The notes beneath the pieces are model-generated. The model saw only the letters and a list, made by a program, of their open reading frames with translations, was not told the origin of the DNA and did no database searches. A stretch of 64,000 nt of DNA from the NCBI GenBank assembly GCA_020724465.1, contig DYGX01000002.1:124001-188000 (forward strand), written 5' to 3'. Numbering within the stretch: position 1 is the stretch's first letter; each line of letters begins with the position of its first letter. A program made the translations under genes and the position numbers. This DNA comes from Thermoflexus sp. Lineage in GTDB: Bacteria; Chloroflexota; Anaerolineae; Aggregatilineales; Aggregatilineaceae. This document shows, in pieces, positions 40,788 through 48,659 of the stretch.

Positions 40788-41066
40788 CAACTCAGGCATC
40801 CAAACAATGCAATGACTTTGACGGGGCCAAGTACGCTGCCCCTCGCGTCCAGAGAGCCGCCGGCTGGTGCAAGGCGGCTGCGAGCCAGCGGAACATCCAC
40901 CCCCGAACAGTCGCCTGTCGAACCTGCCGCGCTAAGACAGGCCGGGCGCGCCCGTTATCGCGCCGGAGTGTTCGCACTCCCCGAGGCTCGTGCCGCAAGG
41001 TACGGGCGAAACCAGGTGGCACCACGGGTCCCCTCGTCCTGGCAGCATTGCAGGCGAGGGGTTTTC
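40788..41066 (+). promoter_or_regulatory. T-box riboswitch upstream of serS
   Basis: Conserved T-box parts in order: AGAGAGCC with the GGTGCAAGGC distal stem I (about 40851-40880), a GGAAC block beside the specifier loop (40890s) with TCC (Ser) as candidate specifier just after it, stem III CGCGCCCGTTATCGCG (about 40947-40962), and the T-box AGGTGGCACCACGGGT (41014-41029). A terminator stem CCCCTCG/CGAGGGG (41030-41036 with 41055-41061) is followed by TTTTC. The UGGC of the antiterminator bulge would pair with the 3' end GCCA; bacterial tRNA-Ser has G73, which fits serine. Uncharged tRNA-Ser would promote read-through into the small ORF and serS. Confidence 0.92.
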
Positions 41067-43281: not shown

Positions 43282-43653
<372 letters not shown>

Positions 43654-44515: not shown

Positions 44516-47638
<3,123 letters not shown>

Positions 47639-48009: not shown

Positions 48010-48141
48010 TTACCGCCGGCGCACGATGTCGCGCGTCGGAATCGGCAGCCGGGCGGGCTGGCGCGGTTGCAGCGTCTCGCGGAGCAAATCGAGCAGCTCG
48101 CGAAGTCGTTCAACAAGCGGGCGACGATTGGTCTGGGCCAT
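48010..48141 (-). CDS. Small ORF (43 aa) between the leuS T-box and leuS
   Basis: Begins MAQTNRRPLVERLRELLDLL and ends with RDIVRRR. GAGGA lies 7 nt before the ATG. The first half is a strong amphipathic leucine-zipper-like helix (Leu every 3-4 residues), the second is Pro/Arg-rich. Charge is very positive. Its place, directly after the T-box terminator, copies the small ORF before serS, although the two proteins are not similar. Could be a regulatory or nucleic-acid-binding peptide. Not recognised. Confidence 0.6.
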   Translation of the reverse strand: MAQTNRRPLVERLRELLDLLRETLQPRQPARLPIPTRDIVRRR

Positions 48142-48240: not shown

Positions 48241-48624
48241 AAAAAAGCCCTCTTCGCAATTCCCTGCTGCCAGGGACGAAGAGGACTCCGCGGTACCACC
48301 CTGATTGATGGCCGTTGAGACTGTCAGTGGACCTGAAGGGGCTCGAACCCTTGACCTCCACAATGCCATTGTGGCGCTCTCCCAAGCTGAGCTACAGGCC
48401 CATGTGTTGCGTGGCGTGCCATCCACTCATTGCGCGTAACGGGCGCACCCGGCGTCGCTTAAGGCAGGCGATCCTGTGGTCGGCGGCGCAGCTCCCGGAC
48501 GAGTTCAGCCTGACGCGCTCGTCGGCGGCGCGCTGCCGGGTTTGCACCGTCCCCGGCTCACTGCGACGATGGCCTACTACTTCCGTTCGACGCTGTTGGC
48601 ACAAGCATTCGTATTGTTAAGGTG
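48241..48624 (-). promoter_or_regulatory. T-box riboswitch of the leuS transcript, interrupted by tRNA-Ala
   Basis: Read on the minus strand from about 48624: GGAAGTAGTAGG (AGTA-type S-turn), then CAGTGAGCCGG with CGGTGCAAACCCGGC (distal stem I), GCTGAACTCG with CTC (Leu) as candidate specifier, and TTAAG...CCGGGTGCGCCCGTTACGCG and GAGTG, which align well with stem II/III of the serS leader. Next comes tRNA-Ala (48401-48328). Then the T-box AGGGTGGTACCGCGGAG (48302-48286) and a terminator stem CCTCTTCG/CGAAGAGG (48277-48284 with 48249-48256) with TTTTTT. The bulge UGGU pairs with ACCA, fitting tRNA-Leu A73. The tRNA thus separates sensor and switch. Confidence 0.88.
48328..48401 (-). tRNA. 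tRNA-Ala (anticodon GGC), CCA not encoded
   Basis: Complete cloverleaf on the minus strand: acceptor GGGCCTG/CAGGTCC with the alanine identity pair G3-U70, D stem GCTC/GAGC, anticodon arm CCACA-ATGGCAT-TGTGG, T arm AAGGG-TTCGAGC-CCCTT, discriminator A. The bases after it are CTG, so CCA must be added. It decodes GCC/GCU. It lies inside the leuS T-box leader. Confidence 0.97.
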
Positions 48625-48630
48625 CCTCAC

Positions 48631-48659
48631 ATTCTAGCGGTGTGCCGGGGCGTTGTCAA
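48631..48659 (-). promoter_or_regulatory. Strong promoter of the T-box/tRNA-Ala/leuS transcript
   Basis: On the minus strand, -35 TTGACA (48654-48659, perfect), a 17-nt spacer and -10 TAGAAT (48631-48636). The start site would be near 48624, just before stem I of the T-box. Confidence 0.87.

Follow-up and report, generated by a model that had tools for sequence, protein, structure and literature searches.

T-boxes are textbook tRNA-binding riboswitches, and the thrS and thrZ leaders of Bacillus subtilis belong to them. In an ordinary leuS T-box of the transcriptional type (Rfam family RF00230), a leucine specifier in Stem I is followed by stem II/IIAB, a Stem III framed by the motifs RRRxG and AA, an antiterminator with a UGGU bulge, and a terminator, beyond which lies leuS. 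The leuS leader of Thermoflexus sp. (Chloroflexota, class Anaerolineae; assembly GCA_020724465.1, contig DYGX01000002.1, positions 124,001 to 188,000) shares all of these parts. It differs from its ordinary counterpart in one respect: Stem III normally closes on a hairpin loop, usually a short one, whereas here a whole tRNA gene lies in the loop. The analysed stretch of 64,000 nucleotides (nt) is referred to below as the window, and the leader lies on its minus strand. We hold it to be probable that this is a working transcription-attenuating leucine T-box in which the Stem III loop has been replaced by a tRNA-Ala(GGC) gene, with two outputs from one promoter.

Transcripts that join tRNAs to a translation gene are known from the Escherichia coli operon thrU-tyrU-glyT-thrT-tufB, in which the cotranscribed tRNAs are freed by processing. 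Unlike the nested leader, this operon has no riboswitch, and its tRNAs interrupt no regulatory fold. A precedent for cleavage between sensor and terminator comes from the thrS and thrZ leaders, which differ from the nested leader in that, according to passages of PMC3997798, RNase J/Y cut at a single-stranded site and no tRNA is released. No description of a tRNA gene inside a T-box was found in the literature searched (titles and the starts of abstracts, with incomplete coverage of subscription T-box papers), and none is mentioned in the matched passages of the T-box collection papers PMC2494555 and PMC7778990. Structurally, the leader belongs to the T-box family; the lack of a description in the literature searched is weak evidence that the nested tRNA is a new feature.

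The leader and the genes downstream of it comprise the following features:

48631-48659, minus strand: promoter-like sequence TTGACA-17-TAGAAT, matching the consensus at 11 of 12 positions, ahead of the leader
48269-48599, minus strand: predicted leuS T-box riboswitch with the nested tRNA, from the RF00230 match
48501-48503, minus strand: specifier codon CUC (Leu), within GAA-CUC-G of stem I; position from the RF00230 alignment, letters checked
48424-48428, minus strand: GAGUG, representing the purine motif RRRxG on the 5' side of Stem III; read from the sequence, motif as in passages of PMC7583486
48418-48423, minus strand: Stem III 5' arm GAUGGC, pairing with 48312-48307 in the Rfam alignment and the minimum free energy (MFE) fold, with covariation in relatives
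48328-48401, minus strand: tRNA-Ala(GGC) in the Stem III loop, with G3:U70 and A73, CCA not encoded; Rfam tRNA model 60.6 bits, ARAGORN 48401-48327
48307-48312, minus strand: Stem III 3' arm GCCAUC, from the Rfam alignment and the MFE fold
48305-48306, minus strand: AA, the conserved 3' flank of Stem III; read from the sequence, motif from passages of PMC7583486
48272-48302, minus strand: predicted antiterminator AGGG-UGGUACCGCG-...-CCCU, UGGU bulge at 48298-48295; Rfam alignment and MFE fold
48241-48286, minus strand: putative intrinsic terminator with an 11-pair outer helix and a 4-pair inner helix, followed by 6 U; read from the sequence
48010-48141, minus strand: 43-codon open reading frame (ORF) between terminator and leuS, with homologues in nine further family loci
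44516-47638, minus strand: leuS, leucyl-tRNA synthetase, 1040 amino acids; ORF with Pfam leucyl editing domain and class I synthetase domain

The RF00230 model aligns over its full length (1-219 of 219) to the leader at 48599-48269, with 62.7 bits and an E-value of 4.6e-13. The alignment has an insertion of 105 positions at the model's last variable hairpin, and this insertion contains the tRNA-Ala(GGC). Stem III reads GAGUG-GAUGGC-(16 nt, tRNA, 15 nt)-GCCAUC-AA. Because the insertion falls between the arm on the RRRxG side and the arm on the AA side of the helix, the sequence places the tRNA in the loop of Stem III. The charging-sensing discriminator is accordingly predicted to be retained: passages of PMC7583486 describe 5'-RRRxG-Stem III-AA-3' plus the antiterminator as the discriminator that senses aminoacylation. 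An earlier note on this DNA, made without database searches, had placed a tRNA-Ala gene between T-box sensor and antiterminator, apparently in one transcription unit, and the Rfam alignment, the tRNA calls and the positions of promoter-like sites bear this out. The near-consensus promoter that it read at 48659-48631 is also borne out by the matches listed above. It had, in addition, assigned the block CCGGGTGCGCCCGTTA to stem II/III; this block actually lies before the RRRxG motif, and Stem III proper is formed by the two arms on either side of the tRNA.

The MFE fold of 48428-48268 includes both the Stem III helix and the bulged antiterminator. The terminator (48286-48241) overlaps the antiterminator (48302-48272), whose sequence supplies the terminator's 5' side, so the two would be mutually alternative folds. 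A terminator scanner missed this element, the outer helix of which encloses 18 nt against a scanner loop limit of 8. The antiterminator motif occurs once in its exact form in the window; with up to two mismatches it is not enriched there (3 occurrences vs 2.89 in shuffles).

The CUC specifier agrees with the downstream leuS and with tRNA-Leu(GAG), which the same genome encodes with A73 and CCA. The UGGU bulge is complementary to the A73-CCA of this tRNA, in agreement with the earlier note, which had matched the bulge to the A73 of tRNA-Leu. It has to be asked whether the nested tRNA-Ala might itself be sensed in cis, so that the switch also reads alanine. In favour, every nested tRNA is an Ala(GGC), with an A73 for which pairing to UGGU is conceivable, but a GGC anticodon cannot read a CUC specifier, the nested tRNA has no free 3' end, and its CCA is not encoded in the window. 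Sensing of alanine in cis is thus very improbable, and the candidate was rejected on the specifier.

The assembly yielded 45 tRNA matches, with ARAGORN anticodons for 44 plus the nested gene. The nested gene is the sole tRNA-Ala(GGC) among them, and the only other tRNA-Ala found has the anticodon CGC. A tRNA-Ala(UGC) was not found among the 45 tRNA genes, which an assembly gap may explain. None of the seven other T-boxes found in the genome contains a tRNA. The leader of serS, with which the earlier note had aligned the T-box elements, is itself a T-box (78.1 bits; window 40809-41044, G000:C55:164809-165044).

Nesting is the rule in the family. Among 18 family genomes, this one included, 16 yielded a leuS locus, and 14 of these loci are nested; the contigs of the other two stop 113 and 74 nt before leuS. 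Every family locus whose contig reaches the leader (14 of 14, own included) therefore has tRNA-Ala(GGC) inside the T-box match. The class is more varied. A LeuS match was obtained in 34 of 41 genomes, and 29 loci were analysed besides that of the window: 11 are nested and six have tRNA-Ala(CGC) and tRNA-Ala(GGC) just upstream of a complete T-box. One locus has a T-box and no tRNA in view (L216), and another has tRNAs and no T-box match (L228). The remaining ten show neither tRNA-Ala nor T-box, and the T-box model at E 0.01 detected nothing in them, L241 among them having only 188 nt upstream. The six tandem loci share with the nested ones the tRNAs, their order, and the downstream gene, but their tRNAs precede the T-box and none lies inside Stem III. 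In L228, two tRNA-Ala genes are accompanied by a terminator-like remnant. A class IV aminotransferase gene stands between the tRNA-Ala gene or genes and leuS in L073, L111, and L228; it looks like the branched-chain type on inspection, and Pfam supports the class IV assignment in L073 and L111.

In 10 of the 11 nested class loci (L218, L221, L222, L229, L230, L232-L234, L238, and L243), tRNA-Ala(CGC) precedes the sensor, which consequently lies between two tRNA genes. The same combination, with tRNA-Ala(GGC) in Stem III, is seen in L059 and L076. In such loci, processing of both tRNAs would release the sensor domain as a separate RNA.

In wider scans, 34 of 301 Chloroflexota genomes contained a strict pattern of T-arm, 30-60 nt, and antiterminator. 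With the spacing set to 20-50 nt, the pattern was present in 65 of 299 genomes from the phylum of Desulfotruncus. For the latter set, tRNA ends were assigned by visual inspection, and a surplus row from one of the matching genomes is plainly a T-box stem II. Reversed patterns matched 0 of the 301 and 0 of the 299 genomes. Since 139 distinct leaders show the nested arrangement and the reversed patterns give none, it exceeds chance.

At least 120 stretches of GTDB genomes matched as well. Here ‘nested’ means a tRNA 30-60 nt before the antiterminator, with the sensor checked by AACTCR only, plus the T-box model in a few. Among the matches listed, 106 hold tRNA-Ala(GGC), three hold other tRNAs, and 11 hold none, a class that includes L039 since this locus ends within its tRNA. 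The three with other tRNAs (L061, L109, and L142, from Slackia, Frankia, and Blastococcus) have no T-box context by eye and no leuS, and were dropped from the nested counts. Two matches on viral contigs contain no tRNA. A same-strand leuS follows in 100 of the 106 nested loci among the matches listed; five of the other six have less than 400 nt left, and in L031 the first ORF is AMP-binding (acyl-CoA synthetase-like). Such an AMP-binding gene directly follows the nested T-box in the Bacillota loci L055, L078, L118, L132, and L031 (Pfam in L055 and L031; the rest by eye). In the first four, leuS lies about 1.8-2.0 kb beyond it, and the L031 locus ends before leuS.

A LeuS-based sample from the phylum of L029, a Bacillota metagenome-assembled genome, matched 31 of 32 genomes and gave 30 loci, 29 after removal of the seed. 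These comprise 19 T-box leaders (seven nested, 12 ordinary), nine loci without a T-box, and one contig end. Of the 19 leaders, 15 were found by regular expression and four (L253, L256, L269, and L270) by the T-box model. The seven nested leaders are L253, L254, L258, and L260-L263. In the ordinary leader L255, the Stem III site reads GAGTG-GGCATGGG-GAAT-CCCATGTC-AA, and the hairpin of L259 is longer. Related genomes, which the earlier note had named as a check, show the same nesting in the family, in the class, and in 7 of 19 Bacillota T-box leuS leaders.

The arrangement is widespread in Chloroflexota and Bacillota. Named carriers include Syntrophomonas, Desulfotruncus, Symbiobacterium, Ktedonobacter, Dictyobacter, Sphaerobacter, and Thermaerobacter, for the last of which the DNA examined covers the tRNA and antiterminator only. 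Cultured carriers include Syntrophomonas wolfei subsp. methylbutyratica and Ktedonobacter robiniae. In a FastTree sketch of LeuS, 38 of 39 Bacillota rows among the rows listed fall on one side of a branch with a support of 88, and the type with tandem upstream tRNAs is scattered among nested types. The Bacillota rows were picked for nesting, and the tree therefore cannot tell whether nesting is ancestral.

This distribution bears on a rival account, in which a tRNA entered the tolerant Stem III loop and persists there as usually the only tRNA-Ala(GGC) gene, while the T-box works around it and the nesting has no regulatory meaning. Such passive co-location is compatible with the anatomy proposed here, and we put its chances only a little short of even. 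It draws on copy number: besides the single tRNA-Ala(GGC) of this assembly, a tRNA-Ala(GGC) pattern gave exactly one match in 29 of 32 named genomes. Of 48 nested genomes, 38 were matched, 33 of them once, and of the remaining five, G141 alone shows, on inspection, a second match that resembles a tRNA. The pattern gives chance matches (one to the reversed pattern), and it missed 10 of the 48 nested genomes entirely. Against passive persistence, the gene evidently moves, as both tRNA-Ala genes lie upstream of the whole T-box in six class members. Moreover, 11 of the 29 class loci, including L241 with its short upstream region, have no tRNA-Ala in view, yet nesting is kept in distant lineages. 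A mobile insertion was set aside as an explanation, since both distant lineages and every family member in reach have the arrangement.

The comparison set comprises 139 distinct nested leaders, and the nested tRNA is Ala(GGC) in every one. G3:U70 and A73 are each present in 139 of 139, a full 7-bp acceptor in 136, U at position -1 in 95, and an encoded CCA in 88. The UGGU bulge is found in 134 of 139 leaders, and a T run within 80 nt in 123. Where enough upstream DNA is available (133 leaders), the sensor region contains the specifier motif AACTCR in 125.

Stem III was assessed in 136 leaders (L087, L137, and L143, with less than 60 nt upstream, were left out). A strict Stem III, lying directly after RRRxG and directly before AA with contiguous pairs and a score of at least 4, is present in 100 of the 136. 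In 200 partner shuffles, in which the 3' flanks were dealt to other leaders, the mean was 19.9 and the maximum 32. A score of at least 6 is reached by 75 leaders, compared with 4.7 on average and at most 11 in the shuffles. Each of the first eight pairs is seen as GC, CG, AT, and TA among the 100 leaders, except that pair 2 lacks TA, and there are 51 different six-base 5' arms; these pair types were counted in leaders themselves selected for pairing. By these sequence comparisons, Stem III covaries. Given the position of the tRNA in the Stem III loop, the intact discriminator, and the covariation of Stem III among the 136 leaders, selection appears to have kept the switch. The same three observations lend no support to the suggestion of the earlier note that nesting may abolish leuS attenuation; its other suggestion, that attenuation is tied to tRNA-Ala processing, may hold.

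The order of parts allows a mechanism to be proposed. A single promoter would drive the sensor, the tRNA, the antiterminator/terminator, and leuS. The sensor would be transcribed first, and its CUC specifier could hold tRNA-Leu(GAG). The tRNA-Ala would be made next, folding on top of Stem III as a bulky loop, while Stem III would bring sensor and discriminator together as in any T-box. The discriminator would come last, and pairing of uncharged tRNA-Leu with UGGU would prevent termination. When leucine is sufficient, the T-box terminator would end the tRNA transcript; when leucine is short, readthrough would add leuS. Since the tRNA lies upstream of the terminator, every full leader should yield tRNA-Ala whatever the leucine state. 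Release of the tRNA by RNase P and 3' processing would come next, most likely once the decision has been made. Excision would cut the loop of Stem III and not its stem, and the helix, acting as a staple, would hold the cut halves together for a time.

Several points weigh against the reading of the leader as a working switch. The fold of 48428-48268 is no more stable than its shuffles (z 0.19), which leaves MFE folding with little weight, and the MFE structure mispairs the tRNA interior. AACTCR is missing from the sensor region in 8 of the 133 leaders, and 36 of the 136 fail the strict Stem III, although inspection of many of these shows a helix with a bulge or an offset. The halves would part if RNase P or Z acted while the polymerase was still short of the end of the terminator. 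Finally, the window leader and all other family leaders score below the curated Rfam cut-off for RF00230 of 93 bits (62.7-92.8 bits for the 14), as do the 11 nested class leaders (58.3-91.9 bits).

These low scores could be taken to mean that the T-box is dead and that the tRNA has its own promoter. Four of the seven ordinary T-boxes of the same genome also score below 93 bits, and the cut-off alone therefore does not define T-box membership. Some nested T-boxes of relatives, however, exceed it with the tRNA in place. Five of the seven Bacillota nested leaders do so (L253, L258, L260, L262, and L263; 106.4-124.8 bits), as do L029 (125.2 bits) and L086, while L261 (91.1 bits), L254 (81.2 bits), L026, L077, L082, and L091 fall below. 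The ordinary leader L247, the sole model-scored one among nine ordinary Bacillota leaders found by expression, has 138.8 bits. A dead T-box would also sit poorly with the covarying Stem III and with the conserved specifier, bulge, and terminator of the relatives. As to a promoter of its own, 129 loci were scanned for promoter-like sites (at least 10 of 12 matches). The two 40-nt bins between -240 and -160 from the tRNA contain such a site in 31 and 34 loci, whereas the 40 nt immediately upstream of the tRNA contain the end of one in 2. Because they cluster ahead of the sensor and are rare ahead of the tRNA, a separate promoter directly upstream of the tRNA is unlikely, and their position led us to reject that candidate. 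We give almost no credence to a dead T-box with an independently transcribed tRNA.

Excision of the tRNA could itself be regulatory, an extension of the working-switch reading that does not exclude it. Removal of the tRNA would close the sensing window, would leave the leuS mRNA with a 5' end made by processing immediately upstream of the antiterminator, and would alter its stability, so that the rate of tRNA-Ala processing would tune leuS. According to passages of PMC3997798, RNases J1/J2, and perhaps RNase Y, cut the thrS and thrZ leaders of B. subtilis at sites that precede the terminator, and a 1996 paper cited there bears a title that assigns thrS leader processing a major role in induction. 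The nested tRNA places a processing site at a comparable position, and the arrangement is kept in distant leuS genes. Nevertheless, the six class members with tRNAs upstream of an ordinary T-box imply that internal excision is not needed for the operon to persist, and a regulatory role of excision is offered tentatively, as somewhat unlikely. Slightly more doubtful is a split riboswitch: after release of the single-copy tRNA from the Stem III loop, sensor and discriminator would be two RNAs joined by Stem III only. Maturation of the tRNA would then time the leucine decision, by fixing, resetting, or prolonging it, and would couple the supplies of tRNA-Ala and leucyl-tRNA synthetase to each other.

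The start of leuS lies about 600 nt past the terminator, and the conserved 43-codon ORF lies in between. Its product, MAQTNRRPLVERLRELLDLLRETLQPRQPARLPIPTRDIVRRR, has homologues in nine other family loci with 48.8-65.1% identity (E 2.1e-5 or better), and is a small protein apparently under the same switch as leuS. The LeuS of the window is about 100 residues longer than that of most family members (open frame of 1051 against about 940), with G006 at 1053. An RNase P RNA gene (class A) lies at 43287-43652 on the plus strand, about 0.9 kb downstream of leuS and 4.7 kb from the nested tRNA.

A default gathering-threshold Rfam scan of the leader region reported the tRNA only and did not list the T-box. 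An annotation that, in this way, records the tRNA but overlooks the T-box would hide the arrangement. Related genomes include carriers of nested and of ordinary leuS leaders, which makes ready comparisons available. The recurrence of the nested arrangement in many Chloroflexota and Bacillota suggests a functional switch as well as a functional tRNA, even though release of the tRNA should split the switch. A T-box here would also make a tRNA, from within its charging-sensing domain. This raises the question of how the switch stays whole long enough to decide while its middle is a substrate of RNase P.
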